Origin: Butyriboletus loyo
Lineage: Eukaryota; Basidiomycota; Agaricomycetes; Boletales; Boletaceae
Length of the DNA: 43,244 nucleotides
Direction: 5' to 3'
Assembly: GCA_038093515.1 (NCBI GenBank)
Contig: JBBPSI010000208.1
Coordinates: 1 to 43,244 of the forward strand
The position numbers and the translations under genes are program-made. Positions 8,976 to 43,244 of this stretch are shown here, in pieces (positions within the stretch are counted from its first letter, which is position 1; every line of letters begins with the position of its first letter). The notes below the pieces were generated by a model. The model was not told the DNA's origin, ran no database searches, and saw only the letters and a program-made list of their open reading frames with translations.

Positions 8976-9952
8976 ATGGCCACTTTCTTTCGGATTTACA
9001 AGTTTGTCAAAGGTCCCTACCAGCGTTCTATGTTCGCTCATGCCCGGCGGTTGTAGTGCAGCCTTAATTCAACGGCCTATGATCGTGCAGTCTGCGACTG
9101 CGGCTTTTCTGTTCGGTGCAGGTGATGTAATTGCGCAGCAAGCCATTGAGCGTCAAGGGAAAAAACACGACGTGCGTTGCTATCCGTGTCACCACGACAG
9201 GCGACTAACTTACATAGTTCATGAGGACTGCTCGACTGACTTTTTATGGAGGTGATTGCTTGCACCGTCTGCGCTGATATACGCCATTGATACTGAAATG
9301 TCCCTCAGGTGCCCTCTTTGGTCCTGCGATCACAAAATGGTTCCAGTTTCTCAACCGTATCAAGTTCGCAAGCCCGACGAAGGGCGTGATATATCGTGTG
9401 CGCCTTGTTTGACATCGGCTGGTTGATGGAGCTAACGAACACGGGATCAGGTGTGGCTTGATCAAGCTTTGCTGACTCCGGGTACCGTTTTTTACGATCC
9501 CTCTTTTGCACCTACTCATCGTTGTCAGTTGCTGTGGGGTTTTTCTTTGGTACAATGAGTATCATGGAAGGTAAAGGTATATCCGGTGCGGTGGAACGTA
9601 TCAGCGAGGTAAGCGATGGTCCAGTGTACGTCCGCCTGTCTTGAGTCGCTTATGTCAGCTTCAGAATTACCAGTCGACATTGATCCGTAACTGGTGAGCA
9701 AAGAGCCCACATGTCACCATCCTCTCTCACTCCATGTTTTTAGGACTGTTTTTATCCCGGCGCAAATAATCAACTTTGCGATAGTGCCTCATCATCTCCG
9801 TTTTGGGTTCGTTAGTGTTGTGAGCTTATTTTGGAGTACGTGATCCCGAAGTTTAGGAGTGATTATCTCATTTCGCCCCCACCATAGATACTTATCTCAG
9901 CGCTGTGAATGCCCGAAGACAACAAGCAGACAAGGACAATCACACAGAGTGA
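8976..9952 (+). CDS. Mpv17/PMP22 family membrane protein
   Basis: Nine exons (8976-9001, 9057-9171, 9218-9251, 9309-9397, 9451-9481, 9529-9608, 9659-9693, 9744-9835, 9888-9952) give 188 aa, the normal family length. Landmarks in order: short N-terminal helix (MATFFRIYNAALIQRPM), GAGDVIAQQAIE, ARLTFYGGALFGP, KWFQFLNRI, VWLDQALLTP, EGKGI, the hallmark RNWTVFIPAQIINFAIVP, and SLFWNTYLSAVNA near the end. The family has four membrane helices and acts in mitochondrial inner or peroxisomal membranes (yeast Sym1, mammalian Mpv17, PXMP2). This copy is closer to the Sym1/Mpv17 pattern, but targeting is not shown. All introns are 47-57 nt and phases match. Confidence 0.95.
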
Positions 9953-12900
9953 TTCCTTCCATTATAGACCGCGAGCATCGCGACATTGTATATCTCCTAG
10001 AGGTCGAAGATAACCACATTTCGTGTAACTATCTCCTTTATCAATCTCCAGTAATTTTTGCGGAAACACGTAGGTCAACCGGTCACGATTGTGCCTGACT
10101 TGGACATTCCTAGGATCCGTGGGACAGCTGTCTCGTGCGAACGTGTGCAAATCCCTCATATCAGCGAACCGATCATCTCCCCACGCAACGTAGAAGCTGG
10201 CGATTTTCGCGCTAGAGGGTCAAGCCATACTTCGAAGTCTTTGTTGTCCATTTGGTCACATGGTGCTTTCCAGAAATAATTTTGGTTGACCTTTCTCCTG
10301 CGTTCATGTGCAACCCTGGCCACCAAAATACCACTATCATTCACCAGCGTGGTTTTCCTCACCACGGCCGCTCCGCAGCTACACACGCACAGAAATAGAT
10401 TGATAAGAGCGACGATGTTTCCTACCAACTGCCAGCAACCACACGATTGACCATATGGCGGTCTATGCAGCTAGTATGGTCTCTTCAAGTTACAGAAGGT
10501 GCCTTATTCGTTCGGTGCTAGTTCAAAGTGCAAATAACAAACCACGTATGTCCGAGAAAAACATTCCGAGATGTCGAAGCCACAAAAACGGCGCGAAAGA
10601 AAGCCATTCTTTCACAGAGTCACACAAAGTGATTTCTTGGTCGACAGTGAACCGAGTGGGCGAAGACGAAGAGGGGAGCGAGACGGGACCACTTCTGTTA
10701 TGGTTATGTTCTGAGCGGGTGGGAGGAAGAGCAAGTTGCGGCGAATCAAGCGTCCCTGAACCTGACCCAACGTGTCGGTGAACGAGTGTATGCAGGCCTG
10801 TCGAATCGAGTGCCATATACGAGGCGTGTGGGAGACAGCCCTGCGCTGCTCCGGTCCTTCACAAACGTGCTGTAAAATTGGATATTCATGTGATCCAATC
10901 CACTATCACAGGTGTGCACCTTGGGTTGGCCGCCCAAGTTGAAATCAAAAGTCATGCGATCCACCGGTTCTACTCCCTGCCTTCGGCGATTGCGACTCCT
11001 CAGACGTAGGTAACAGAATGTTGTGTCGACCGAGGGGACTATGAGACACGATTAAATCAATGTGCCCCTGGACTAGTAGAATGGACGATTATGTCGATCG
11101 GCACAGATCAGTCCGAACTCGAAAATGCGCAGATTGGGTGGACCGTTGGGGTTTAACTGTTCGTGCCCCTCAAAATGGTGCACGTCACTCGATAGTGTAG
11201 TCAAGAGTACCTGATATTCAGTTGAAGGAAGACAGGTGAGTGGCGGTGGGCTTCCGTACCTTTTAGCGCAGATGTTATTTGCAACCTGGTCTAGGCTTAC
11301 GAACTCCACGGGCAACCAAGGCCATTCTAGAAACATTTTGGGGGTGTTATATCTGGCTTATGGTTGCGGTCCTGTCGTCGCGAACCGCCCGTATGGGTTT
11401 CTTGCCCCGCAGCAGTATTGTGAACCTGTGACAGGTTCTGTGGCGGACTTCACACCGCATGCAGTGGAGAGAATCACTGCGGCAATAAAATAAGAGACCA
11501 ACAAACACCTACATGCATATATTCTGAGACGAGTCATTCTGTCTCATATGCGGCACTAGACAAATAACATCGAAGAAATGTTACGGGATGTCCTGCGAGT
11601 TAGTTTCCATCGTCAGGAAGTGTGTCGCCAAGTGGATGGGTTACGACGGGCAGTGATTTCGCAACGTAGATTATGCGGGTTGCAAGGACAACCGATGGAC
11701 GTGATGTTATTGGTCTCGGACCTAATACGTACCTGAGGTAGTACATCACTTGACATTCTGTCCGTCGAGCTTCCTCTGATAAATGAAGGGGCTACCATGA
11801 TCGAAATATTGGCGAGTGACCGAAACGTGGGACGAGGTGGTATTATGCTGCCTAAAGTAGTGTCGTCCTCGGCGCCCGAACTTTTCGCTGCCTCACTTGG
11901 ATGCCAATTCGCAGAAAGACCTGTCAAAAGCATCGACGACATCATGCCCTCTAAGCCTACAAAAATCGAAACAGTCACGGGGACTGAAGTGGGGAGATAA
12001 TGATAGTTGCACTGCAGTTGACTAGCCAGTCGAAATACGTACGTTAGTCTTCTCCACTCTGTAGGTGTAACACCGCATCAATTTCGGGCTTGAGCGCAAC
12101 ATCAGAGCCGCGGATACAGGGCAGGGAGTCCACCTTAACGTTGACAGCACATCATCGTTATTTCAATATTCAATTCCGGCGTAAACTCGTTGGGGTGTAA
12201 CGGAACCGTCCAGAGTTCACTGTAAAAGTCAGCCTACATCCGGAAGACGCATATCGCCGGCCTGGGCCTGGCGTGGAGCGCTCAGCTGACATTAATAAGA
12301 ACATATGAAGTTACGTTTCGCGCCTCCTTTAGTAACTCGCTTGAGGATGGCAGGTCCGGGCCGCAAATATCTTCTCCGGGGAGCCGAACGGAAATGCTTC
12401 CTCAGCAGGGATGGAAGACCGAATATTTGGGTAGAAAAGGAACAGTCTCAAGTGCTGACGCGCTATGACAGCAAGCAGGGGCAAGTAATTGCCCAACCGT
12501 ATGGATGGACGATTGAGCAGGAGGGTTTGGGCCCCATTCTGGGACTGGAGACGTATGGCTGACGATGCTATTGGTCCTAGTGAACGATAACCATTCCTCG
12601 CTGGGAACCAGCATGACAGGAAGGAAATGAATCAAAGCAAGGCATCGAATGGTCCTAATTATAAGCCACAAGCACGATCCGCGGGTAGTATTAATAGCTG
12701 TGATCACCACTGGCAGACTAGCCTGTTGCGGCGTCCAGGGATTGGAGAAACGATTTACAAAATTTGTACACGTTACAGCTCCATATTGTGCTATTGACTG
12801 TCTGGACACGCCACAAACACGAAATGGACCGCACGCGACCTGCTCGGGATGCACTGAGGCGTGCCATGGTCGTTGAAAGAAGCAGTGATGATGAGCGCAG

Positions 12901-13204
12901 TTAAAACGGAGAGCCGGGACTACGGAGGCGATGAGGTGAATGGAGGTTGGTCATCACGATGACGCTGGCCCTGTCAAGACGCAACACATAGCCCAGCAAT
13001 TCAACGATCGCACCAGCTCTAAGACCGCCTCGTCGAGTCCCTCCAAGCCCGCAAACCTGCCCCTCGTCACCATCAACGTTACCTGCGCGACAACTCAACA
13101 ACACCGGCAACAAAATACGAACCGCGACTCCGAAACTGTCCGAAGCGTGCGGCCTGGATAACACACCACAGCGCTCAGTATTTCCAACCAGTTGTTCGTC
13201 GCCG
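9953..13204. other. 3.3-kb gene-poor stretch
   Basis: No gene could be supported between the Mpv17 and IML2 genes. Open frames reach about 150 codons (for example minus 12854-12402 and minus 11978-11613) but show no recognisable motif and no convincing splice chain. A minus frame at 10428-10156 begins with a hydrophobic stretch that could be a signal peptide; it cannot be extended convincingly. The IML2 promoter should lie in the last few hundred bases. Confidence 0.4.
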
Positions 13205-15828
13205 ATGGCCATGAACCGCCCACCACCGTTCGTTCCACAGGCGTACGATCCCAGGGATGCGTTGGACGACATCCCTGGGATTCACTGGGCACTTCACGAG
13301 TTCCTTCACTCTCGCATGCTCGAGGCTGAGGAGTATTGTCACCTTGTCGACCCAAACAAGTACGTTGCTACAGCACGTTTGAGCTTTAAAATTGAAAAGC
13401 TCCTCAGGGAGAGACTGTACTTTGCGACCGGCTATGGCCTCATTCAGTGTGTCAAGGGTCTTATGTCATTCGAGGACAAAGTACGTGGCACGTCGGACCT
13501 CCTTCTAGCGTGTTATGGGCACTGACATGCATGTTGCGAATAGGACCTACTTTCAGCTATAGATCACACAAGACATGGCAACTCTATCGCCTCCGCTCAC
13601 CGTAAACCCGCACCATCGTTGGCGGGCCGCCTTGCCAGCTATATCGTTCCTGGGATGAGCAATTCGGGTATAGAATGGATTGCACAAATGACACCGGTTG
13701 AGAGACATGCAGAACTTGTGTACGCTGAAAGCTTGTATGAAAAGGTGTCCGCGTCGCCCCCTCCTACTTATCCAGACATTAATGCGACCATCGGTAGAGT
13801 TTGCTTGGTGTCGTGTACTCTGGAGACTGGCTTGCATTCATCAAAGAAGTGTGAGTATTCCCTTCCTCCAGGTGCGACGACGGCTCAGGTTCGAAATCAT
13901 TTGGTATCTGGTTTTACAGATTGAACATGCGTACCACTATGTCAATATATCGACAACTGGGACGATACCTCGAAGCAGTTGATGCTGCGTATGCTGCTGC
14001 CCATGCGAATGACGACGCGTCAGATAGATTACTTGAGGACCCATCTATTGACGTACATTTTCGTTCGGGCGTGTATCTGGGTGTTGGTATGTCCCACCTC
14101 ATTCTGTCCTTGATGCCCGCGCGGCTCTTGGCGATCGTCGAGTTATTCGGCTATCGAGGCGACCGTAAGGAAGCGTTGAGATTGTTAGATCGAGCAGGTG
14201 GCTGGGATGCTCATGGTGAGAGGAGTGTCATCTCTCAAGGCAAGTCACACGTTGCATCGCGTTAGTGCCTGGTGTTATCATTCACTGAGGCTGACGATCA
14301 CCTAGAGTCTGAAGGCGTCCGCCGTGCGATTTGTGACATGACCCTACTCATATTCCATCTTGTACTATCCGCGTATACCTTTGAAAGCGTCGATGTGGCG
14401 GTGGCTCGGAGAATCGTAGAATGGAATTTGGGGAGATACCCCAATGGTGCACCCAGTGCTTCTGTATACCCCTGCAGAATCGCTAACTTGTGTTCCAGGC
14501 GTGTTTTTCCTCTTCGGCGCTGGTCGCCTTGCGCTTGTGCGCTCGCAGCCTCGGCGGGCTCTCGAGTATTATGCTAGAGCAACGCAAGCGCAAACTCAAT
14601 ACCGTAATATGCACCATATCAGTTGGTGGGAGAGTGCCATTGCCAATTTGGCACTGTGGAATGTTGACACCAGCAAAGGTTGGTGGAACCGCCTGCGTGG
14701 CGAGGCTACGGCAAGTCTAACCTTGCCACTTGGGTGCGTATGAACTCAGCGGACTCTGTAAATAGTGGTCCAAAGCAACTTACGCGTACGGGGAAGCGGC
14801 TTGTCTTGCGACGGTTGGTGACCACGATGGCGCTGCAAAGCTGATGGAGAAAGTATCTGGTCTTAGGCAACGGATCGCCGGGAAGAGCATACCACTTGAG
14901 GTAGGACGTGAGGTTTCCTTAAAGAATCCGTTCCCTGACTTTCTGCATTTTGATCATGTATCGATGGTTCTTGCCAACAGAAATTCGCCGCTCGCAAGGC
15001 ACGCAAGTATTTGGCTCAAAGGAACCGGCTGATCCTACCGGCACTCGAGCTCGCTTATGTGTTTGCTGCCATCGCACATGCTCCCCGCCAAGTCGTACTC
15101 GAGCGCATGATTCCCCATGTCCATCAAGTACTCGAAGAACTAGGCGTACTGGAGATGAACGGTGTCAGTGGAGATACGAATCCAAATGGGCAAAAGAACA
15201 AGCGGGGAAAAACGAGAAGTAAGGTGGAAGGGAAGGAGGGATACTGGGATGATCTATGTTTGGCACGGTTCTTGGAGGGCGTTTGCTGGCGCTTCGTTGC
15301 CTATCCAGTATGTCCACTTGTTTTGTCGACGTTCGCCAAGATCCGCTTTGTAGCTGTTTCGTGAAACTGATACGCTCTATTTCCAGGATCCCGATGCCGA
15401 ACTGGACACAGACGAAAAGGTACCCGTTTCAGTTGAGGAAGCTAGACACAAGGCCGAGTCTGCGTTTGAGGAGGTATTCGATAATGGACCCAGGATAGAG
15501 CTAGACCATTATATCGTTTACTACGCCCGTAGGTCGCTTTTTTTTCGTTTACTTCGACAGATTGACTGAGCGCGCGAGTAGATTTCGAGTACGGGCGGCT
15601 CCTCGCGCGTTCGGGCGACAAGGAGGGTGCCAAAGCCCAATTTGACATGGTACTGAGTGGGAAACCACTCGAGGTCAACGCCGCTGGACGCAAAGGCAAA
15701 TACAGTCTCGAGGTGTGTTCCTTCCGTTGATTGCAAATGGTTTCCCTCCTAATGTAACACCACAGAACGCCCTGTATATCCGGACGCACGGCGCTGTAGA
15801 TGCCCTATTGCAGAATCGACCTCTTTAA
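13205..15828 (+). CDS. IML2: IML2/TTC39-family tetratricopeptide protein
   Basis: Eleven exons (13205-13480, 13544-13744, 13798-13850, 13920-14215, 14306-14446, 14499-14710, 14766-14900, 14981-15307, 15387-15528, 15582-15712, 15766-15828) join in frame to 658 aa. Family features: LLSAIDHTRHGN near the start, SGDWLAFIKE, GVGMSHLILSLMPARLLAIVELFGYRGDR, an FGAGRLALVRSQPRRALEYY TPR-like hairpin, ATWSKATYAYGEA, and KARKYLAQRNRL with LPALELAYVF. Yeast Iml2 is needed for clearing inclusion bodies and is linked to mitochondria and lipid droplets; animal TTC39 proteins share the fold. Intron 6 has a GC donor (ACG|GCAAGT) and TAG acceptor and restores exactly the expected residues. A second in-frame ATG lies two codons downstream of the chosen start. 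Family assignment is firm; function in this fungus is inferred. Confidence 0.92.
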
Positions 15829-17024
15829 ATCGTACTGGTGCCACCTAATTCCTGACTTGACAGATGATCTGTTAATCGTTTACACACATTCCTTTACTGA
15901 TCTATTTACCCGTTCTTGGATTTTGCGATAGTGCTTGCTGTTATCTTTCGTTCGTCGTAGACTGCGCTGCGTGTATGGTTGGGTTGAACGATTTTGAGCG
16001 TGCGGGTTTCATCATTGGGACTATGAATTGAAGAATTCGATAATACCGAGACGGAGCGTCCTAAGTATGTGGTTAGTTGTTGGTTCTACAGCCATCGAAC
16101 CAAGAGACCCCCGCTGTGATGCTTCTTTCCTTAGTACGGCTTCGCTTCGCGAATTCCTTCCTTAGCATAGGCCTCACCCGCAAGTGATTGCAGCTCAGAC
16201 GTTGGACGTTGCACCGTGTCATTCGAGGTCGGACGACATTTATAAACACGAAGACTTGAGTTGAAGTACCTGATTGAAAGCTATCCGTATTGGTGTTGAC
16301 CAGGTCCCCGTTCGCCAACTGCCAAGATTGTCGGTTTGAGTGTTATGTCGGCCTTTCATAGGATGAAACCCCTGCTAACCGTGAGGAAGTCATACCAATT
16401 AGCAGGTGGGTGACCGTAGCCAACTTGAGGGGGCGCACTCGCGGATGAATGTTCTTCAAGGAACCTGGGCCACCATCCAGACGAGTTCTTGGTCACAGTT
16501 CCTTGGTATGCAACCCATATAACTCAGGTATCGGAAATTCACGCACCACTGCTTGTTTCAGCGGCATATTCGTCTCCGCGCCACGTTCATATGATAGAAG
16601 GGCATCAACTCTATAGCGGAATTGCGGATCAAATCAAGGATAGTTTCCAAGTGGCTGACCTAGCAACGCCAGCTTTATTTGACGCTCGGAGAATAGGCAT
16701 GCAATGTAGCCAAGTTATGCCGGACCAAGAAAGTATAGGTATAGACGTGCATGCCGCATACACGCGCTGAATTGATGATCGCGCGATGGTCAGCGAAATC
16801 TACTAGGCTGGTCAGTTCACATCCAAACGTGTTCCTTTACAACTATTAAAACGAATGTTACCACGTTAATGCATCCCTCAGACGACCTTTCGCAATTTGG
16901 ATCGTACACCATGAAGCTCGGAGCGTGTGCAAGTGGACACGACGACGAGGCGGCGCGGGCCGCGTTGACGCGATCTGTCACAGACCACTTACGCGTGACA
17001 CGCGCCATTTAGTGTCACGCCCGC
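15829..17024. other. Intergenic region upstream of MAU2
   Basis: About 1.2 kb without a supportable gene. The largest open frame (16489-16770, +) shows no known motif or splice partners. The last 200 bp before 17025 are GC-rich and probably contain the MAU2 promoter. Confidence 0.45.
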
Positions 17025-19839
17025 ATGATGGACGACCTCAATCATCCTCGCCCACAGAAACGACAGCGCATGGATCATATCGCAGACAGCGCTGAATCAT
17101 CCGCGCCGCCGCCATCGTCTATGTCGTCGCAACCTCCATCGACATTCCGACCCCTACCTCCTCCAGTGCTCCTCCTCGCGCTTCCAGCACTGCTAGCCCA
17201 TCCTCCCAGTCACGAACATTATCCTCTGTCACTGTTTTTATCGTTGAGAGCACTCAGGACGTGTCTCGAACTAAAAGCACTCACACCGGACATCGAATGT
17301 CGCGCTTGGACTAGTCTAGCTGAGGTAGGACTCAGAGTCGTCCATAGCGGTTTCACTACCACTGGGGAGCACGCTTGGGCAAATGGAATTGAAGCGGAAG
17401 TAAGTCATCTATTGAACGAATGCTCTCAGTGCTCATATCCTCCACTCTGCAAGGTTGAGAAAGCGATTGGAAGAGGGGTGCGTTGGATCTCATGTCCTTT
17501 CCCTTGTAAAAAAGCTGATAAAGCCCGTTCTTATAGCTCCTCATAGCGCAAAAGGTGCGAAACTCGTGCATATAACCAGGTTTGTCCCGATATGTTTGCT
17601 GATGGATACTTTGCAGCATCCCTCCCTTCGTCCACTCCGCCACCACCTGTCCCTGCTCAACGCAGCGTTCGCATTCCGAAGTAACAACACGAAGTATGCG
17701 CGTGCATTGCTGCGAAGACTCATAGCATCATTCATGTCCTCTGATTCTCCTTCTGTTGTGTACATGGCTCACTTGGCCCTCATCACGCACCTGACGTCAG
17801 CACAACCCCCTGTGCACGGTGCACCGAATCCTGCTGCTCCCTCAGCTGCTGAACTGCAAGCTGCTCTTACAGCCATCGAAACCCTATCTAGTCTCGCTGC
17901 ACAAAATAGACACTCCGCCATTGAAGATCTGACAGCAGTCCTGCGCGTTAGAGTGTTAGTTGGCGCTGGCCTGTGGGATTTGGTCGGTGATGCACTTTCG
18001 GTTGCAGAAAAGGTCATGCAGCTGGTTTTCCACATGAGGGAGGAGAAACCCGCGAAAGGACAGGAAGGCGAAAAGGCAAAGCAAGACACTGCCGAGGTCC
18101 TAATGAGATCATACTCGATAACGGCGCAGGACGTGCACAGTGGTGCTTCCTCCCAATCCCAGTCTCAATCAAAGGCTGACCCTACCCCTGCTCCCTCTCC
18201 CGCAAAAGAAGGATCATCCGTTCCTAGTCCAAAAGGCACGGATACCCTCACACTTGCGCTTACTGCGCATCTTCTCATTTTAGGTGTTACTTTTCATACA
18301 CACGCGGGTCGTGCGCGTGCTGCTGATACTCGATTGGCCGCCCTACATACTCTCATGGATAGTGGTGCGCTGGTAGGTGGTGCTAATTCAGATGGGCTGG
18401 TGGAAGTATGCCTCATCTTGTCTCCCTGATTACCTACACTAAATTTACAACCAGATTCCCCTTCCAGGACACGATTCCATCTTTCTACAAACAACTCACC
18501 CACACATCTTGTTTCTACTCACTTTTCTTGTCTCTGCTGTCGCGAAACGGGACCCAGTGTCTCGCCGCCCCAAAAAACGAGTGTTTGCAGAATGTGGAGT
18601 TGTACAGTGTCGGGAAGGTCGTCTGGGTAAAGAAGGTTCTATCAGAATAAATGGTATATTTCATTCATTTTCTCAAGTCGCAGGTGACTCAAGTATTGGA
18701 TACTCGTTTCCCCAGTTCCACTGTGGGCGTCTTATGGCGATGTGACTACTGTCGAGCAACACGCCCTCCGAATCGAGGCAGACTTGCTATGCGAACTCGT
18801 TACCGTAAGCATGCTTCATCATCCTGAAGTATATCTCCGTTTTACACCGACACTGTCTAGGTATCAATCCAAAGGGGTGGTTTTGAAGCCGCGGAGAGCG
18901 TGAGTTTGTCCTATTTTCAAGGTATCACGCTATTCAAATTGTTCTTACTAGCATCTCGCTACGCTGATTGCCCATACTCGCACGTACGACTTCTTCCCTG
19001 CTTATGCTGCTCGCATTGCACTTCTTCATGCGCACATTGCACATGCACTTGGCGATACGGAGCGTGCAGGAACATGCTATCGTGTAGCTGCTCACCTCGA
19101 TGGGGCGGGTCCCGTTGGGTCGAGTGTGGCACTCGGAGGGGGCTTCATAGCTGCGGCAGCCCGTGCTGGCGAGGCCCTTCTCCGTATCGGACTCTCTGCT
19201 GTCCAATCGTCGCCTCCTTCCTCTCTTCCTCCTGATGAACAAGCTAACCTGCAACTTGATGTCGCCACCACATCTCTCATCAAGGATGCCCTCGCACGGT
19301 GCTCATCGGGCGCCTCCGCGCCACTACCTGCTCTCGGGGAACTCATTTCGGCTGCGCTTGCACGTTCGCACATCATCCGATCTAAATCGCTTTTGAAGCA
19401 CGCGCTCGAGCTGCTCAGCGCCGCGGGGGATAATCATTTGCGTGCGTTGGTATTGGCTGTCGTGGGCGCGCAATACGTGTATACTGCCCCGGCGCATGCG
19501 ATGGAGGTCCTTGCCGTATGCGAGACGCTCGGTGCCGGCATGGGTGCCAATCCAAAGAAGGCAGAGGAAGGACCCGGAGGAGTCGCGCCGCCGTCCGACG
19601 TGACGCAAACCAAGGACGGCGTTGGTAACGCGCCATTACGATTATGGGTTGGCGAGCGCTTTCTCGGTGCGTATTTCCGCTGACAACCGGAGCGCGATAT
19701 GGATGATTGAGGATACGGTTCCACAGAACTGTTTAAGCGCGCTGGTAAAGAGAATCGGGTTCGCAAACAAGAGGCGTTCAATGCGGTGTACCAGGCGGCC
19801 GTGAACGACTTTGGGACGCATCGTGCGCGACTTTGTTGA
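17025..19839 (+). CDS. MAU2: MAU2/Scc4-type cohesin-loading factor
   Basis: Predicted partner of Scc2/NIPBL in loading cohesin onto chromatin. Exons 17025-17399, 17454-17477, 17537-17554, 17617-18405, 18455-18653, 18716-18804, 18861-18899, 18952-19666 and 19727-19839 give about 786 aa. Supporting blocks are YPLSLFLSLRALRTCLELKA, VEKAIGRGLLIAQKHPSLRP, SLLNAAFAFRSNNTKYARAL, IPLPGHDSIF followed by THPHILFLLTFLVSAVAKRD, PLWASYGD, and a C-terminal LRLWVGERFLELFKRAGKEN helix pair, as in the Cohesin_load family of TPR repeats. Exons 2 and 3 are only 24 and 18 nt. The 3' boundary of the exon starting at 18455 is ambiguous: a donor near 18617 is equally in phase. The N-terminal 60 residues are Pro/Ser-rich. 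Confidence 0.87.
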
Positions 19840-35983: not shown

Positions 35984-35994
35984 TTAGGGTTAGG
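35984..35994 (+). repeat. Interstitial telomeric repeat at element junction
   Basis: TTAGGGTTAGG directly follows AT-rich unique DNA and directly precedes the 3' end of the first Penelope-like unit. On the plus strand this is the G-rich strand pointing right, as at a right-hand chromosome end. It is best read as a fossil telomere to which an element was added. Confidence 0.75.
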
Positions 35995-36057
35995 AGGGAG
36001 CAACGACGAGCCGAAGGCGAGGAGTTGCGGTGATTAGTACTGCGTGAGTGGGGATTT

Positions 36058-36140
36058 ACCACAGGTAACAGGACTGAGGGCATCCAAGCCGTCAATCCAT
36101 CCTGTTTCGTCCCCAGCGGGACTCATCAGACCTTGGTGGT
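36058..36140 (-). ncRNA. Hammerhead ribozyme, family 2
   Basis: Read on the minus strand. Core CTGATGA (plus 36129-36123) and GAAA (36108-36105) flank a 5-bp stem II, GTCCC-GCTG-GGGAC. Stem III pairs CAGGA with TCCTG. Cleavage would follow GTT at 36067, and stem I pairs AGGT with ACCT, a bulged G, then ACCA with TGGT. All invariant core bases are present. Stem I is the open stem (type I), as in hammerheads of Penelope-like elements. Confidence 0.9.
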
Positions 36141-36167
36141 AGTGAACGTCAGAAAGCCGACGCACCG

Positions 36168-36175
36168 TTTATATA
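36168..36175 (-). promoter_or_regulatory. TATA box of the family 2 unit
   Basis: Minus-strand TATATAAA lies about 30 nt upstream of the hammerhead stem I. A transcript starting at the usual distance would begin almost at the ribozyme. Confidence 0.5.
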
Positions 36176-36583
36176 TCTAGCGATACGGTGCACGGACCAA
36201 GCATATTATTACGAAGTGTGAGAGAAAGTAAGGACGTATCTGGAGCATTGCGTCATTGCGTGGGATACGGTCTCACGAGAAGACACGGGGACCTGGTTGC
36301 CTGGGTGACAATCAGTTAATTTCCGCTCGCTTACTACGCGGTTCTAGACCTCCGGGCCGACATGCCGTATGACGTCATGATCTAGACCCTCGGCCCCTTC
36401 GGGCCGGCGGTAACCCCCATGCCGGGGGTGGCCGCTTGATAATCCTAACCGAAGTAGCCGGTTCAATAGCCGACCGGTGTTCGGTTGCCTAAAAGGCCGA
36501 GTTGCCGGATGCCGGACTATTCCCACGCCACATCACGTGGTTGGTTCCGCACGGCCCGAAGGCCGGGGGTCCCGGGTATAGCC

Positions 36584-36605
36584 GGTTAGGAGGAAACAAA
36601 AAAGC
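36584..36605 (-). repeat. 22-bp stub of a family 1 element 3' end
   Basis: GGTTAGGAGGAAACAAAAAA plus GC copies only the last bases of the family 1 3' terminus. It is followed at once by GTTAGGTTAGG and a complete unit. It looks like an extremely 5'-truncated insertion buried by the next addition. Confidence 0.6.
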
Positions 36606-36610
36606 GTTAG

Positions 36611-36654
36611 GTTAGGAGGAAACAAAAAATCCGAAGGATTTTTTGTTGGATATG
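36611..36654 (-). repeat. 3'-terminal hairpin motif, copy A
   Basis: GTTAGGAGG then an 11-bp stem with GAA loop (36622-36632 with 36636-36646), then TTGGATATG. The apical pairs are TCC/GGA here but AGC/GCT in the other copies, so both sides of the stem changed together. On the element sense strand the motif closes with CCTCCTAAC. Confidence 0.8.
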
Positions 36655-36678
36655 AAGTTCGAAGTACTGAAGGTCTGC

Positions 36679-36750
36679 AAAAACAGATAACAGTGGGGCG
36701 CATCAGTAGCCTCACACCTGTTTCGTCATATGACTCATCAGATCTGTTTT
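36679..36750 (-). ncRNA. Hammerhead ribozyme, unit A
   Basis: Minus strand: stem I AAAACAGAT pairs with ATCTGTTTT (9 bp). Core CTGATGA, stem II GTC-ATAT-GAC and GAAA follow. Stem III is long and bulged (CAG..TG..GGC with GCC..CA.CTG). Cleavage is predicted after GTT at 36689. All core residues are intact. The distal stem III differs from unit B by paired changes. Confidence 0.92.
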
Positions 36751-36785
36751 GGTCGTCGAATCAGACGATTAGGCACGAACCTTGT

Positions 36786-36791
36786 TTTATA
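36786..36791 (-). promoter_or_regulatory. TATA box, unit A
   Basis: Minus-strand TATAAA is about 40 nt upstream of hammerhead stem I and conserved at the same place in unit B and in the 5' pLTR. Confidence 0.5.
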
Positions 36792-37111
36792 GGCGCAATC
36801 TTGGTCCGTGCGCGTTATCTTGCGATAAGCTGATAGCAAAAATAGAAAGAAGACACGTCACCGGGTGTCCGTCATAGCCGCGTTTCCCTAGCGACATTTA
36901 ATCTCCGTGTGACGTGGGAATGGTACCTTGATCGGGGACCTAGAATTTGATCGCCGCCGTGTGGCGTCTTCTTTTGCTTGACATAACCTAATCTCGTGAG
37001 AAATAAACCTTATCTCGTGAGAATCAAACCTTAATATGGACGGTAATGACCGTGGGACTTGGGCCTAGACCCGGAAGATCCCGTCGGAGTTCAAATCTAG
37101 ATAAGATCCCG

Positions 37112-37155
37112 GTTAGGAGGAAACAAAAAAAGCGAAGCTTTTTTTGTTGGATATG
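37112..37155 (-). repeat. 3'-terminal hairpin motif, copy B
   Basis: Perfect 11-bp stem 37123-37133 with 37137-37147 and a GAA loop, flanked by GTTAGGAGG and TTGGATATG. It is identical to the copy at 42102-42145. The position right after GATATG is the empty site of the group I intron found in that other copy. Confidence 0.85.
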
Positions 37156-37180
37156 AGGTATTGAAAACTGAGAGCTGTAG

Positions 37181-37255
37181 AAAAACAGATAACAGTGGGG
37201 TCTTTACTTAGGACCTCACACCTGTTTCGTCATATGACTCATCAGATCTGTTTTT
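37181..37255 (-). ncRNA. Hammerhead ribozyme, unit B
   Basis: Minus strand: perfect 10-bp stem I (AAAAACAGAT with ATCTGTTTTT), CTGATGA core (37245-37239), stem II GTC-ATAT-GAC, GAAA, and a bulged stem III closing with GGTC/GACC. Cleavage is predicted after GTT at 37191. It is the best preserved of the set and the reference for the deleted copy at 43 kb. Confidence 0.93.
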
Positions 37256-37287
37256 GGTCATCGAACGATCGATGGCACGAACCTTGC

Positions 37288-37293
37288 TTTATA
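37288..37293 (-). promoter_or_regulatory. TATA box, unit B
   Basis: Minus-strand TATAAA starts 38 nt upstream of hammerhead stem I, so transcription would start just ahead of the ribozyme. Conserved in three family 1 units. Confidence 0.55.
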
Positions 37294-37591
37294 GGCGCAA
37301 TCTTGGTCCGTGCGCGTTACCTTGCGATAAGCTGATAGCAAAAATAGAAAGAAGACACGTCACCGGATCTCCGTCTAGCCGCGTTTCCCTAGCGACTTTA
37401 ATCTCCGTGTGACGTGGGAGTGGTTCCTTGATCGGGGACCTGACTCAATTCAGTTTTAATTACCGCCGTGTGGCGTCTTCTTTTGCTTGACGTAACCTTA
37501 TCTCCTGAGAAATTGAACCTTATCTCGTGAGAAGCAAACCTTGTTTGGACGGAGATGACCGTGGGAATGGGGTCTAGACCCGGAGATTCCC

Positions 37592-37646
37592 GTCGGAGTT
37601 TAAACACAGATAAGATCCCGGTTAGATCCGATCTTTAAACTCCGAC
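37592..37646. repeat. 13-bp perfect inverted repeat at the unit B 5' end
   Basis: GTCGGAGTTTAAA (37592-37604) is inverted at 37634-37646, with the GGTTAG unit boundary inside the 29-nt loop. It may mark an inverted junction of the kind common in Penelope-like elements, or a foldback used in transcription. Confidence 0.5.
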
Positions 37647-37780
37647 CCACATGCCGGGGGGGCATCCTCGAAATCGGTATCTTGACCCCAATGCCGGGGG
37701 TACCGGCTATTAGGGTTAGTGTTATCGACCCCCCATGCCGGGGGTTCCGGCTATTAGGGTTAGAGGTTAGGGTTTAGGTT
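37645..37780 (+). repeat. GC-rich minisatellite with telomere-like units
   Basis: Three diverged tandem units of about 43 bp share GACCC..ATGCCGGGGG. The second and third also share CCGGCTATTAGGGTTAG. The third runs on into further TTAGGG-like units to 37780, and another GGTTAGGGTTA lies at 37842. The ATGCCGGGGG motif recurs at 36425 and 42411. It lies downstream of the reverse-transcriptase gene and may be old telomere mixed with element sequence. Confidence 0.6.
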
Positions 37781-38383
37781 ACTGTGTGCAGAGGCACTAT
37801 CAGCTACTGCGTATCGTGGCAGTTAACGTAGTAGAACTCACGGTTAGGGTTATGTTAGAGTTAGCTTAGGCTCCCTAACAACCGAGGTAAGTATGTCATG
37901 TAAGAGCGACATAGAGTCCTACTTACCGCAAGGTAAGCATGGGAAAGCAGCCAGTCCGGTCTTGCGTCGACAGCCAACGGCTGAGACAGTCTAAAACCAG
38001 TGGTTTCACAGAGGGACAAACGAGTCAGAAATACTAACGCCTAGCTCGGCGTAGACTCGCGGTAGACTTACTACAATGGTTGGTTGTAGTCTACGACTTC
38101 GCATTGTTTTCGTACAAGGCTTACTAGCGCATATCCTTTCGTCAACATCATATCCAACAAAAAATCCTTTTCAGGTTCTTTTGTTCCCGCCTAAGCAAGG
38201 ATTAAGGGCATCCGTCAAGTACCGGGGGTCACAGCGTGTTTCTGCGCAAAGACTAATAGCAGTCCTTGGTCGTAGTAAACCTGCCAACGACATAGTTTGT
38301 CTGGTGCAAGTGCTACATAAGTTTCAGACAGCGTGTTCGATCGACCTATTCGTACCGACCGTTAGCCGGGGGTCGTTGAGCAT
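37781..38383. other. Element 3' non-coding region with strong hairpins
   Basis: Between the reverse-transcriptase stop and the minisatellite there is no coding frame. It contains CTTACC-GCAA-GGTAAG (37920-37935), AGCC-AAC-GGCT (37972-37982) and a 7-bp stem ACTACAA/TTGTAGT at 38069-38090 within GTAGAC...GTCTAC. I could not match these to a known ribozyme core. Confidence 0.45.
38149..38195 (+). repeat. Inverted, diverged copy of the element 3' terminus
   Basis: The first 19 nt (CATATCCAACAAAAAATCC) are the exact reverse complement of 36636-36654 in unit A. The rest (TTCAGG..TTTTGTTCCCGCCTAA) is a decayed form of the other half. It points opposite to all other units, tail to tail with the reverse-transcriptase gene. 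Confidence 0.65.
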
Positions 38384-40699
38384 CTAGCGCAATCCTACAC
38401 GAAGTAGGACGTTCGCCATGTCTGTAGTGTCCGTGAAGACTGGGCTTGGAGAGCGACGATGCAAATTGCTCTCGCTGTCGCCACCTAAGTCGATCAGTCG
38501 TCCTGATCGATGGCGATGGAGATTTGTCATGTCTAGAACATCCGGGGGGGCGTCAAGCGAAGTAGGATTGGTTACTTCAGCCCCGACCTGCTCGTCCAGC
38601 TTTTCCAACACCGTGCGTTTCCAAAGACTTGCTAAGTCGTTGACATTGAGTGTCCGTTTTCGAGACACAATGACACGGCGGTCAAGAATACCGATTCTCC
38701 GAATATCCGGGACTACGACCTCGTTACCTTGGTCGTCGGGCAAGAAAATAGTCAACGCCGAAGCGTCGATGTCATCTCCGTAGCCGACCGGTATCGGCGG
38801 GAATTCGCGGTTGAATTCTCTACGCTCGGCTCTGTCGAGCCAAGTGCGCATGTATTCCATCATGGTGTTACCAAGTTCCCATGCGTGAAAGTAATTCCAA
38901 GCAGTATTGTAGTGTGACTTAAGGACCAAGACGTCTTGCGTCTCTCGTTCTTGTTCGCGTATGCTCAAGCGTTGTTCCCATCGCTTGGTATATTGTTCCT
39001 TACGCCAATACGCTACTAACGCCGGTGGATAACCACGTTTGACATACAGTGCAACCAGCGACTGTATGGCCTCCTGGTAGTGTTCGGGTGTACTACTCAA
39101 CGTGGCTAGGCGTGACATCTCACCATAGAACGTTCCTCGTTTGACGTCTAATGGGTGAGCACTTATCCATGGAATTCTTTCCTGGTGGGACCGTGCCTTC
39201 CTATAAGGCAAATGCTGGAGTTTGTTGTGTCCGTCGACGTACAACATCATGTCCAGGAAGGGTTGTGACTTACCGGCCCCCCAGGTTATTTCGCAGTCAT
39301 CGATTCGGACTGTGTCCGAAACAATACGTATAGCTTCGTGTTCACTCGAAGCGTAAACGATTGCCATACAATCGTCGATATATCTACCGTAAAAGGCGAT
39401 ATCGCGGTGTTGTTGGACTTTGTCCCTTCGTTCACAGAACCACCCATACAGGTTAGCGAGGTCTGGTGAATCTGCAACGCCCATAGCAAGGCCATTGAGT
39501 TGGACATAAGTTACACCGTCAAACTGCGTGACGAGCTCAGTATTCCCTACTTCGAGACAATGTTTAAATAGCTGTTGTTCCCTGACTTTATAGCTATCGT
39601 CATGATCGGGTACGTTCCAATAGTGTTCGAAATATAGATCGTACGTTCGATCTAGACACTTCCTAAGTGGAATATTAGGGTAGTACGCGACGACATCACC
39701 GGTAACAATGTATATTTCTCGATGGTGTGTAAGACTGAGCGAGCTCAATTTTATCGCCAGGTCTTTGGTACCATGTATGATGGTTGGCGCCGACATGATG
39801 ATCGGTTTGAGCATTTTAGAAGCGAACTTCGCGGCTGGATTCTGTATAGCCGAGTGACACGGAAGAATGGGACGGAACTTAACGGGTTCCTTATGGATCT
39901 TAGGGATGCCATAAAACCTCGGCACATGGTGTTCTTCACCTTGCTTAGTGACTTTACTTAGTAGGAATTCACTAACAGAGCCGTATTTCCAGTCGAAGTC
40001 TTCTGCTTCTTTAGACAACAAGCGCATTACTGTGCATTTACCGTCGAGAATGCTCTTAGCTTCTGCATTAGTCAAGCGTTGGTATTCGTTGACGTTGCTG
40101 ATACATTCAAGACTTTTACTTAGGATCCAGGTCCTCTCTGACACCGATATGCCAAGGTTCTTATCTGTAGGCGTGATAACGTAGTCGTTATCCAATAAGA
40201 ACTGTCGAATGAGATTAGGCCTTGGACCGAGAGGTTTAAAGGTGTCATCCACGGTGCCATCCGAAGGTATATGGGAGATAGTATCGTGTACATATTTCCG
40301 GCCCTTTCGAATAGCTAATTCGACGTAAAACGGTAATACGGGAGGTTTCTTTCTAGAAGGTTCCCTCACATCGTAGTCAGGATCGTAAGTGGTTCTGTCG
40401 TCTTCGAGCATAAACTTAACGCGCCAACGGAACCGACGAATGAAGTCGGACCATGCGTCTTGTATCAATGACGAGTTACGTGGTTGGTGAAACATATATT
40501 TCATACCAACGCTAAGTTGATGCTCGATCTCTACGGGAATAGAGACCCCTGGACCGACATGAATGTGATCTTTGAACCTGGCAGCCTCCACAATATTAGA
40601 GGGCGTGTTCTTAATCACCAGATCGATCGCAAGAGGTAGAGGAAGGGATAATATTTCGTCAGGAAGCGACGAAGGTACACCGTAAATAAAGGAACGCAT
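38384..40699 (-). CDS. Penelope-like reverse transcriptase, no endonuclease domain
   Basis: 771 aa, no visible intron. Motifs in order: TPTDKNLG (DK at 179-180) of the PLE N-terminal region, FYGIPKIHK (262-270) and FRPILPC, catalytic motif A GDVVAYYPNIP (D335), motif B QLNGLAMGVADSPDLANLYG (400-419), motif C YGRYIDDCMAIV (Asp 442 and 443), then a thumb. The 200-residue C-terminus ends RPS-type basic sequence and has no GIY-YIG or zinc finger, so integration must rely on a free 3' end. PLE reverse transcriptases are the sister group of telomerase. The frame stays open for at least 390 nt upstream of this ATG, through the end of ORF1, so the true N-terminus could be longer or reached by frameshift. 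All catalytic residues are intact. Confidence 0.93.
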   Translation of the reverse strand: MRSFIYGVPSSLPDEILSLPLPLAIDLVIKNTPSNIVEAARFKDHIHVGPGVSIPVEIEHQLSVGMKYMFHQPRNSSLIQDAWSDFIRRFRWRVKFMLEDDRTTYDPDYDVREPSRKKPPVLPFYVELAIRKGRKYVHDTISHIPSDGTVDDTFKPLGPRPNLIRQFLLDNDYVITPTDKNLGISVSERTWILSKSLECISNVNEYQRLTNAEAKSILDGKCTVMRLLSKEAEDFDWKYGSVSEFLLSKVTKQGEEHHVPRFYGIPKIHKEPVKFRPILPCHSAIQNPAAKFASKMLKPIIMSAPTIIHGTKDLAIKLSSLSLTHHREIYIVTGDVVAYYPNIPLRKCLDRTYDLYFEHYWNVPDHDDSYKVREQQLFKHCLEVGNTELVTQFDGVTYVQLNGLAMGVADSPDLANLYGWFCERRDKVQQHRDIAFYGRYIDDCMAIVYASSEHEAIRIVSDTVRIDDCEITWGAGKSQPFLDMMLYVDGHNKLQHLPYRKARSHQERIPWISAHPLDVKRGTFYGEMSRLATLSSTPEHYQEAIQSLVALYVKRGYPPALVAYWRKEQYTKRWEQRLSIREQERETQDVLVLKSHYNTAWNYFHAWELGNTMMEYMRTWLDRAERREFNREFPPIPVGYGDDIDASALTIFLPDDQGNEVVVPDIRRIGILDRRVIVSRKRTLNVNDLASLWKRTVLEKLDEQVGAEVTNPTSLDAPPDVLDMTNLHRHRSGRLIDLGGDSESNLHRRSPSPVFTDTTDMANVLLRVGLR

Positions 40700-40800
40700 A
40701 TTACAAGATATAAATTGTCCTTGTACTAATGTTGACGGTATAGTAGGTACCGAATTGTAAGTGCGACTCTTACAACTGTTTACGAAGACGTTTATAGGGC

Positions 40801-42060
40801 CTACTTGCCCTGTCGTTTTCCCTTTCCAGCTCTTTTCCCCGCTTGAGCAGCCGCCCGTATACCCCTTTGGGCTGCCCTCCGCTGCTTCTGAGCCGGAGGC
40901 GGTACGTATGGGAGGCCCGAAGGTTGTCCTCCACCTCGCGGAGCCGCTTGAGTCCGTTGACCTTGCGTATGTCCGCGACGATGAGCTGCCACAGGTAGTG
41001 AGGCGATGTTCCGAGAGCGTGGACGTTTGTTTCCCCGTGCGCCACGCACATTCGCGCCCACTGAAGACGGAGGTCCCCCGCGATGCTGCTGTCGCTTCTG
41101 GGTAAAATGAAGCTTTAGCATCGAGAAGTCGTTATATGGATGATAACGACTTACCTTTGAAGAACCCTCTTTAGAGCGGCCGGCTCGTCCCCCAAGAGCA
41201 GCGTGAACTGCTTGGTCAACGAGAGATTGGATGGATCTTGTGCCACCCACATCGGCGGGTAACCCACTAGAGTCCCCCATTGCCACATCGGCCTGGGTGT
41301 GTAAACGCCGTTTAGCTTGGAACTTAGAGTCCCTAGCGGCTACGATCGTGTCGATGATGGACATCACGCGATAGGCGTACATGACGATGTCGTCGAGGAG
41401 GGTCTTACCCATAGCCTCATACGACTCGTTCACCCGCCACTCAACGTTGACTACTTTCCCTGCTGCGTCTTTTACAACGCTGGGTAACTTCCTCTCGCGA
41501 GAAAGATACCCCGCCCTGTCAGTGACAAGGGGCGCAAGGATTTCGTACAGAGTCGTTGGTGACAACGCCCCCTCGAGGAACTTGATTTCATCCACTTTGC
41601 AGCGGATGATGTTATCAAGCTGCAGCTTGAGATGGGCTGCATGCGTTTCATTGAGCTTGGCACGTTGTGCCTTGCCCTCAGCGCTTTCCTCGAATGCAGA
41701 GGTAAATTGTACCTCCACACCCTTCTGTGAGAGGAAGGGGGGGATCGTCCCGGCTAATTGATAGCCCCGCCACTTCTCCAAAGTGGCGCGTGCAGTAGCG
41801 AGCTTTTGGGCTGTGCTACCAACCGCGATGAGCGGCTCACGGAGTACGAAGCGGTAATCCGCGGGTACCATAGCGATGACCTCGTCAACCGAGTTCGCAG
41901 CCTGCAACTGGGAGTGACGAGTGACGGAGGAGGGATCAACTGACTTAGCTGTTTCATCCAGCTCCATGGCTCCGAATGCGGCAGCCGCCTGGGACGTCAG
42001 CTGATACTCCGCCTGGTGGAATGGGGAGAGTGCGCGAAGAAGGGCGGCGTTGGACGACAT
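40801..42060 (-). CDS. Element ORF1, basic protein with one retained intron
   Basis: Unspliced frame 419 codons; removing 41154-41098 (GTAAGT donor, GCTAAAG branch-like site, CAG acceptor, 57 nt) leaves 400 aa in the same frame. The intron has no stop, so both forms could be translated. The first ~290 residues are helical with charged heptads (FEESAEGKAQRAKLNETHAA). The C-terminal 90 residues are Arg/Gly/Lys-rich and end AGKRAGKGKRQGK, like a nucleic-acid-binding tail. No homology is recognised; a gag-like RNA-packaging role is inference. The start lies 41 nt downstream of the 3' hairpin of the 5' pLTR. Retained introns are a known PLE trait. Confidence 0.75.
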   Translation of the reverse strand: MSSNAALLRALSPFHQAEYQLTSQAAAAFGAMELDETAKSVDPSSVTRHSQLQAANSVDEVIAMVPADYRFVLREPLIAVGSTAQKLATARATLEKWRGYQLAGTIPPFLSQKGVEVQFTSAFEESAEGKAQRAKLNETHAAHLKLQLDNIIRCKVDEIKFLEGALSPTTLYEILAPLVTDRAGYLSRERKLPSVVKDAAGKVVNVEWRVNESYEAMGKTLLDDIVMYAYRVMSIIDTIVAARDSKFQAKRRLHTQADVAMGDSSGLPADVGGTRSIQSLVDQAVHAALGGRAGRSKEGSSKVSRYHPYNDFSMLKLHFTQKRQQHRGGPPSSVGANVRGARGNKRPRSRNIASLPVAAHRRGHTQGQRTQAAPRGGGQPSGLPYVPPPAQKQRRAAQRGIRAAAQAGKRAGKGKRQGK

Positions 42061-42101
42061 CTTGTGGTGTACGTGTGGGAAGGGTGGAATACCGTAAAAA
42101 T

Positions 42102-42145
42102 GTTAGGAGGAAACAAAAAAAGCGAAGCTTTTTTTGTTGGATATG
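42102..42145 (-). repeat. 3'-terminal hairpin motif, copy C (5' pLTR)
   Basis: Identical in sequence to copy B, with the 11-bp GAA-loop stem at 42113-42123 and 42127-42137. It forms the boundary between the 5' pLTR and ORF1. The group I intron abuts it at 42146. Confidence 0.85.
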
Positions 42146-43051
42146 CTTGCGTCTCCCTTCATTACCTCCGTCTCTGAAAGAGCCGACAATACCATTTTAG
42201 GTCTGGTGGGGACCAGTCCGGTGTCCTTGCGGAACTGCCTTGTCGGTGGAGCTAACCTGGTAGGGATATCTACCGTATTTCCCGTTTGTCCTCATATTAC
42301 CCAAGCTGAATAGTCAGGGGTAGAGGCCAGCGACGGCTTTAACTCTCCACCATCAAAAACAGCCGGGGGTCAAGGGTGTCAGTGGGCGACATGCAAAGCA
42401 ATGCTTAGCCTACATGCCGGGGGGGCCACAAGGGCTTCCCTCTTTATACAGCGCTGAGGGTTCGGGGTGTAGACCAGGAGCTTCGCTTCTCCCATCAGAC
42501 GGTATGGTTACAACCTACACCTTTGCCCAAAGCCGTGACTTTCGCCACTAAAAAGACTATATCTTAAGAGGAGACCCTTTCACCGAAGCTACTAGAGATC
42601 TCCCCCCATCGCCGTCTAGTCGTTGAACGCGCTCCCTCTACCCGAAGGAGGTAGGGACTTCGCTGCTGATTACCCATTTCGCCATTACAGCGTATCCGTC
42701 GGATTATTACCATACCCGGCGTCGAACCGGTGCCTCAAGCCTACTTAGCGCTGTAGCAACAAAGTCCTCTCGGACAGTGCCCAGACCAGTTTCGGCGCCG
42801 ACCATTACTGATCGTAGGCGGTACCTAAGGCTTTAGGGCTTTCCAGAACAATTTGACGATGTTGCCGGGTCTGACATCGACTTGCACGAGGACTATCCCA
42901 CCAAACGGTGAGCTCGTACAAACCCCATTGATCACTCACCAGAATGTCCACCCAAGGTAGCGGCGCATGGTCCGGACTCTAAGTCGAAAAAGAGCGCAGC
43001 AGGAAACTGCAGGTCACTGTGCGCTTGCCCTGTGTATAGACGTGATCATCG
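42146..43051 (-). ncRNA. Group I intron (IC1-like) inside the 5' pLTR
   Basis: Minus strand, 906 nt, no coding frame. Core elements: P with CGTCAAATTG at 42858-42836, GGGTATGGTAATAATCCGACGG-type P5/P6 junction at 42717-42696, Q (GTAATCAGCAGCGAAGTCCC) at 42673-42654, R (GTTCAACGACTAGACGG) at 42628-42612 and S (AAGATATAGTC) at 42565-42555. P7 pairs GACTA with TAGTC. P4 pairs GTT-CTG with CAG-C-AGC, keeping the bulge of the Tetrahymena intron. P9 has a GAAA loop (42548-42535) and P2 is GGTGAG/CTCACC. Comparison with 37146-37165 fixes the ends: exon AATACCT | intron ...CGCAAG | CATATCC, i.e. U before and G at the end as group I requires. The likely guide sequence GGGTGG (42953-42948) pairs with the exon end TACCT. 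Confidence 0.9.
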
Positions 43052-43076
43052 AGGTATTGAAAACTGAGAGCTGTAG

Positions 43077-43119
43077 AAAAACAGATAACAGTGGGGTCTT
43101 TACTTAGGACCTCACACCT
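43077..43119 (-). pseudogene. Hammerhead ribozyme remnant lacking its core
   Basis: The 3' half of stem I (AAAAACAGAT on the plus strand), the cleavage triplet and most of stem III remain. The CTGATGA core, stem II, GAAA and the 5' strand of stem I are missing. Compared with unit B, 61 nt between two ACCT tetranucleotides (37220 and 37281) are lost, a microhomology deletion. It cannot self-cleave. Confidence 0.88.
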
Positions 43120-43122
43120 TGC

Positions 43123-43128
43123 TTTATA
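43123..43128 (-). promoter_or_regulatory. TATA box, 5' pLTR
   Basis: TATAAA is retained beside the deletion. Because 61 nt are gone, a start about 30 nt downstream would now fall inside the hammerhead remnant, and the group I intron would lie in the 5' UTR of the ORF1 transcript. Confidence 0.5.
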
Positions 43129-43244
43129 GGCGCAATCTTGGTCCGTGCGCGTTACCTTGCGATAAGCTGATAGCAAATATAGAAAGAAGACACGTCACCG
43201 GATCTCCGTCTAGCCGCGTTTCCCTAGCGACTTTAATCTCTAGG

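Follow-up and report, generated by a model that had tools for sequence, protein, structure and literature searches.

A group I intron with IC1-like features in the leader of a Penelope-like retroelement of the bolete Butyriboletus loyo

Near one end of the 43,244-base stretch of Butyriboletus loyo DNA analyzed here (the window, on the contig called C208), an insert in the leader of a Penelope-like retroelement raises the question of whether group I ribozymes naturally splice any nuclear transcript besides rRNA. According to excerpts of a 2013 review (PMC3679873), every nuclear group I intron known lies within an rRNA gene. A sequence-only reading had placed a complete group I core in the insert and had proposed a search with the Rfam model, the absence of a covariance-model hit being what would speak against it. 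The search confirmed the core: RF00028 (Intron_gpI) matched over the full model (positions 1–253 of 253) at 42533–42920 on the minus strand with 90.7 bits (E 4.4e-22; gathering score 50 bits), and is the only gathering-level Rfam match within the window. The intron and the parts of its core are listed below.

42146..43051, minus strand: group I intron, 906 nt (nucleotide 1 at 43051, terminal G at 42146), from the internal Rfam match, ends set by empty sites and no difference from a second copy on contig C304
42533..42920, minus strand: catalytic core, P2 to P9, from the RF00028 match
42555..42621, minus strand: P7, the guanosine-site helix, 42617–42621 with 42555–42559 (5/5 standard pairs), with the P3 3' strand and P8 between
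42704..42716, minus strand: GGUAUGGUAAUAA, inside a P5 extension of ∼170 nt, located in the sequence

The elements named in that reading are present, with a 2-nt bulge in P4, R as GTTCAACGACTAGA, S as AAGATATAGTC, an intact P7 (GACUA/UAGUC, all five pairs standard) and a P9 of 5 pairs closed by a GAAA loop; P2 has 7 pairs, P8 has 9, and P3, which forms the pseudoknot with P7, has 7 of 7. The stretch GGUAUGGUAAUAA in the P5 extension is taken here to resemble the A-rich bulge of the Tetrahymena P5abc domain, and this extension suggests that the subgroup may be IC1-like. No structure is assigned to the ∼390 nt downstream of P9. Together with 9 nt of its 5' exon, the intron folds better than 20 of 20 shuffled sequences (z −2.63), and forcing the core helices, with P7 left out as pseudoknotted, costs ∼13 kcal/mol relative to the free fold (−336.5 vs −349.9). 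The two copies of the intron are identical and thus represent a single independent sequence, on which a covariation test is impossible.

The insert interrupts the 5' pseudo-LTR (pLTR) upstream of the element ORF in sense orientation, in agreement with the place in the leader and the strand given by the sequence-only reading. The pLTR sequence recurs at both ends of the element, and intron-free pLTRs provide empty sites for comparison.

43241..43244, minus strand: telomere-like CCTA in place of the CACG of the pLTR, at the point where each of the two intron-bearing contigs ends (pLTR comparison)
43052..43240, minus strand: 5' pLTR segment (upstream exon), minus 61 nt of hammerhead at ∼43116–43119 (pLTR comparison)
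42102..42145, minus strand: pLTR tail (downstream exon), with CATATCC, a hairpin with a UUCG loop and CCTAAC (sequence and pLTR comparison)
37111..37625, minus strand: 3' pLTR unit A, intron-free, with the empty site 37155|37156 and an intact hammerhead at ∼37181–37255 (pLTR comparison)
36610..37116, minus strand: 3' pLTR unit B, intron-free (ACTT|CAT) (pLTR comparison)

In the regions fetched, 26 rows had at most 7 mismatches in 27 nt, and after 4 were set aside as another internal repeat there were 22 intron-free pLTR junctions, 10 of them matching the reference at all 27 nt and 18 reading ACCT|CAT. Among the pLTRs found, the intron occurs only in the 5' ones of C208 and C304. Adjoining this family at window positions ∼35984–36606 is a second one, which bears a hammerhead core of its own and is also seen at L044, L045, L047, L048 and L051. 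The insert has no target duplication, on which ground an ordinary transposon insertion was rejected; a chance covariance-model match was rejected on its E value, and a mitochondrial origin of the intron on the GC content of the insert (0.54).

Comparison with the empty sites supports the ends 42146–43051, and in this the earlier reading was right, the intron-free pLTR junctions being in agreement. One base is common to empty and filled sites, and the comparison allows either U|C...G|C or UC|G...GC|A, fixing the ends to within 1 nt. Unit B, which had been said to define the ends exactly, shares this base too and leaves both choices standing. The choice of U|...G| follows ribozyme logic, since a U.G pair, P9.0 and a terminal G then result. 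The predicted exon pairings with these ends are as follows.

43052..43055, minus strand: 5' exon strand of P1, ACCU, with the U at the splice site; pairs with 42922–42925
42922..42928, minus strand: internal guide AUG+GGGU, with the P10 strand at 42926–42928 and the P1 strand at 42922–42925, directly before P2 (exon pairing)
42143..42145, minus strand: 3' exon CAU, the P10 partner; pairs with AUG of the guide
42147..42148, minus strand: AA before the terminal G; predicted to pair with UU at 42553–42554 (P9.0)

The guide, AUGGGGU, occupies intron nucleotides 124–130. In P1, ACCU would pair with GGGU, the pair at the splice site being U.G, and the helix would continue into the intron with a C-G pair, a G.U pair, one mismatched position and six more pairs; P10 would be CAU/AUG, and P9.0 the UU after P7 with AA, followed by the terminal G. 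When the first 175 nt of the intron were shuffled in 20,000 rounds, a guide this good adjoined P2 in 0.26% of the shuffles and occurred anywhere in those 175 nt in 3.5%. The insertion site is compatible with the guide, though not uniquely so, since other sites fit as well and an alternative guide place at intron nucleotide 99 gives a longer P1, of 5 pairs, lacking P10. Specifically, with wobble allowed, a P1 of at least 4 pairs and a P10 of at least 3 are reached at 12 of the 1239 sites ending in U in the element sequence without the intron, among them the actual site and its 3' pLTR twin, with several others scoring higher; on both strands of the window, 220 of 20,939 sites fit the guide at least as well.

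The host element was assigned from its coding region and its ends.

40801..42060, minus strand: first part of the element ORF, the frame being broken in the window copy (ORF comparison with C304 and C81)
38384..40699, minus strand: reverse transcriptase part of the ORF, 771 aa (416 relatives; conserved alignment motifs)

The frame is single and open in C304 (1225 aa) and in a further full copy on contig C81 (1226 aa), whereas the window copy (38384–42060) has a frame break. The C304 and C81 ORFs differ by 34 silent and 14 changing codons, a ratio that points to purifying selection; many of the differences lie between residues 75 and 158, and this clustering suggests local exchange with a diverged copy. 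Because both have one open frame and mostly silent differences, the element seems to be in working order as judged by sequence. The reverse transcriptase has 416 relatives at E ≤ 0.001, with a best identity of 64% among the 120 listed, where Lentinula edodes is the one organism named and the Pfam entries are PF00078, PF28514 and PF26215; no relatives were found in IMG/VR. In the alignment, IDD is conserved in 12 of 12 members and YIDD in 11 (FIDD in P0058), and GDVV..YPN.P is shared among them; we take these motifs to mark Penelope reverse transcriptases. Pfam detects RVT_1 in 3 of the 12 members and no other family in them, and nothing in the window protein. The GIY-YIG family is absent from all 12 members at E ≤ 0.001 and, at E ≤ 10, from the window protein and the ORF upstream of it. 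We read the element as a probable endonuclease-lacking Penelope-like retroelement. A host gene in the window is 79–80% identical to proteins of Imleria badia, Butyriboletus roseoflavus and Boletus reticuloceps. Imleria is a genus of the Boletaceae, which makes a host from that family probable.

The description of the element as telomeric is likely to hold. The pLTR 3' ends carry a hairpin and CCTAAC(CC), the telomere complement, and the intron-bearing contigs end in telomere-like CCTA, but (TTAGGG)4 was not found in the whole assembly. In telomere-attached Penelope-like elements the telomere complement lies just downstream of the hammerhead, according to excerpts of a published study (PMC6431247). 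A pLTR match lies less than 6 kb from a contig end in 10 of the 14 contigs that have one (binomial 8e-6), a figure to be read with the fact that repeats themselves break contigs. The locus is likely a chromosome end on this sequence evidence. On the reverse strand of the whole assembly there were 16 matches to (GGGATT)4, a reversed word used as a control.

The same intron is present on contig C304 of the same assembly (30.3 Mb, 420 contigs) with an identical RF00028 score. The assembly-wide covariance search scored 26 of 713 candidates, and two intron copies are therefore a lower bound; a DNA search of the assembly with the insert and its 5' flank recovered these two complete copies, and no other fragment of the intron turned up. 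Over window positions 37223–43244 (∼6 kb) the two contigs differ at 3 positions, none of them inside the intron. Their similarity ends at the 3' end of the element (window position 37105), and the 19.9 kb of C304 beyond it share only one 39-bp stretch with the whole window. The third full element copy, on C81, is missing its upstream end. Because C304 differs beyond the 3' end of the element, the intron-bearing element appears to be attached at two places, through either retrotransposition or an exchange involving two chromosome ends.

The reading that we consider probable is that a complete IC1-like intron of the nuclear type entered the leader of this bolete element by reverse splicing, was copied by reverse transcriptase, excises itself and is carried onward. 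The intron would have been reverse-spliced into element RNA at ACCU|CAU and the intron-bearing RNA copied by the element's own reverse transcriptase. Transcribed as part of the element leader, the intron would then fold, bind guanosine at P7, cleave after ACCU and join ACCU to CAUAUCC, an excision restoring the leader AAUACCU-CAUAUCC, and RNAs escaping splicing would carry the intron to new chromosome ends. Transcription, splicing, reverse splicing and carriage by retrotransposition are thus steps that we infer. No homing-endonuclease frame was found in the insert: its longest stop-to-stop frame is 75 aa, and a Pfam search that covered 10 of the 13 frames of at least 40 aa gave no match at E ≤ 1. 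Reverse splicing is the most likely mode of entry because the insert is exact, lies at a guide-paired site with no duplication, and shows no endonuclease frame. A weak point of this sequence-based reading is that P1 has just 4 exon pairs.

The intron is retained in both copies whose 5' part is assembled, in apparent contradiction to a splicing-based reading, as complete splicing should leave retrotransposed copies free of the intron. Since complete splicing would erase the intron in each round, two copies require some unspliced templates or recombination, and an exchange between chromosome ends could have made the two out of one. Alternatively, the inserted intron may no longer splice, or may do so only with host factors since lost, and may be tolerated as an inert passenger in the untranslated leader. 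Its persistence in two copies after copying is consistent with such inertness, as are the free fold, which favors other pairings, the short P1 and the long unassigned region after P9. However, the full core model is matched, P7, P9.0, the terminal G and the exon pairings are intact, and the 16 ATG triplets carried by the insert would be expected to hinder translation if it were retained; loss of splicing is for these reasons considered unlikely.

Entry at the level of DNA, through a homing endonuclease acting in trans or through intron DNA being captured when a break at a chromosome end is repaired, is doubtful to a similar degree. Chromosome ends undergo frequent repair, which would favor this route. 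Excerpts of the 2013 review likewise describe DNA homing as the most efficient route of intron movement (PMC3679873). Against such an entry stand the endonuclease frame that was not found and the exact insertion, lacking any duplication, opposite which the guide can pair. An entry of this kind says nothing against later splicing.

The leader that bears the intron differs from the 3' pLTR copies in one further respect, in that its 5' pLTR is without 61 nt found in them (counterpart ∼37223–37281, junction 43116–43119). The 5' half of a type I hammerhead, namely a stem I strand, CTGATGAG, stem II and GAAAC, lies within these 61 nt, and the hammerhead-less leader reads GCAAGGTGTGAGG. In the intact hammerhead of the 3' pLTR, stem I (AAAAACAGAT/ATCTGTTTTT) is 10 bp long. 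Its core was found at 28 places picked by core motif, 21 in this pLTR family and 7 in the second, with helices judged by eye; among the 21 copies stem III shows compensated changes, likewise by eye. The Rfam hammerhead score is weak (18.9 bits vs a threshold of 48.5, E 3.9). Type I hammerheads occur in Penelope-like elements, as stated in excerpts of a published report (PMC7761336). The gap can be read, in one alignment chosen among a few equivalent ones, as running from GT (CAAG|GTTCGT) to AG (ACAG|GTG), with a branch-point-like CTGAT starting 24 nt from its end. It is possible that a spliceosomal intron was removed here, as the gap looks like one; since AGGT is present at either end, a simple deletion is possible too. 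If the spliceosome did remove it, the copy would have come by way of a spliced RNA.

The absence of the hammerhead core from the intron-bearing 5' pLTR and its presence in the 3' pLTRs might be taken to mean that the group I intron was recruited to take over processing of the leader RNA from the hammerhead. There are just two, nearly identical copies in which this could have happened, and the loss is equally well described as a spliceosomal GT-AG removal or a deletion between the AGGT repeats; such a recruitment is accordingly quite improbable. One kind of leader can bear two unrelated ribozymes, a hammerhead and a group I intron, and possibly also a spliceosomal intron.

A donor for the intron was sought in the rDNA of the same assembly. 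The readable part, 5.8S and the 5' part of LSU on contig C380, does not resemble the intron significantly (best E 1.5). This contig reads N over its first 7,500 bases, and conserved SSU and inner LSU fragments have no match in the assembly. Both intron copies found lie in the Penelope-like pLTR and not in an rRNA gene, a statement to be read with SSU and most of LSU being unreadable in this assembly. From ∼8290 to 17088, C380 has the LSU 5' part followed by DNA with no LSU match that holds a 1695-aa frame; this frame has endonuclease and reverse-transcriptase motifs by eye and is possibly an rDNA-inserted LINE. Pattern scans of IMG/VR and GTDB for relatives of the intron gave seven contigs, only one of which has group I introns by cmscan at gathering level. 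It is IMGVR_UViG_3300035698_008802 (L054), in which region 5345–6268 has tandem group I matches at 5758–6005 (59.0 bits) and 6070–6268 (66.0 bits), together with an HNH-like frame among phage-like genes, by eye.

The wrong joining of an rDNA intron to the pLTR in assembly, a concern raised in the sequence-only reading, is very improbable, because the same two pLTR–intron junctions occur on two contigs with different 3' surroundings, the pLTR exons on either side of the intron pair with its guide and no further intron copy was found in the 30.3-Mb assembly, even though the contig end is rich in repeats, (TTAGGG)4 is lacking from the assembly and an rDNA donor is conceivable where the rDNA is readable only in part.

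Evidence for the full pathway of reverse splicing followed by reverse transcription and integration into rDNA is lacking, according to excerpts of the 2013 review (PMC3679873). An intron inside a retroelement brings a reverse transcriptase along, which makes the RNA pathway of intron movement directly testable, and the present locus may show how group I introns spread through RNA copying. That it records the whole RNA route, from reverse splicing, through copying by the reverse transcriptase of the element and then fixation at the end of a chromosome, to spread outside rDNA with the element as vector, is a tentative proposition to which we assign slightly less than an even chance. In the literature searched, the titles and abstract openings among the matches listed mention neither a nuclear retroelement that holds a group I intron nor, more narrowly, a Penelope-like element with such an intron. 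The novelty claimed for the placement is thus upheld to the extent that these matches and the excerpts of the 2013 review (PMC3679873) name no counterpart.

The element itself is closest to those known as Terminons, endonuclease-lacking Penelope-like elements at chromosome ends, with which it shares reverse transcriptase relatives, hammerhead-bearing pLTRs and a telomere-complementary 3' end. Coprina and Athena are such elements. The 5' end cut short at telomere-like bases is also alike, according to excerpts of published work (PMC6431247). It differs in carrying a group I intron in the leader, a feature reported in none of the matches listed. In a comparable case, Arkhipova and co-workers reportedly observed in 2003 that Penelope and Athena copies multiply while keeping spliceosomal introns; the present element would likewise multiply with a retained intron, theirs being spliceosomal and this one group I. 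Tetrahymena L1925 and fungal rRNA introns are examples of nuclear rDNA introns of subgroup IC1. The present intron has the same core, P7, P9.0, terminal G, U.G pair and P10 as these, and a similar P5abc-like extension. The nuclear rDNA introns sit in rRNA genes, in the excerpts of the review (PMC3679873), whereas the present intron sits in the leader of a retroelement. Part of a group I system is also found in another eukaryotic transposon, the DNA transposon KolobokP, which has a homing-endonuclease gene of likely group I intron origin according to excerpts of its description (PMC9587614); there it is the endonuclease gene that is present, and here the ribozyme, with no endonuclease frame found. 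The intron itself is thus of a known kind, and it is its place that appears new.
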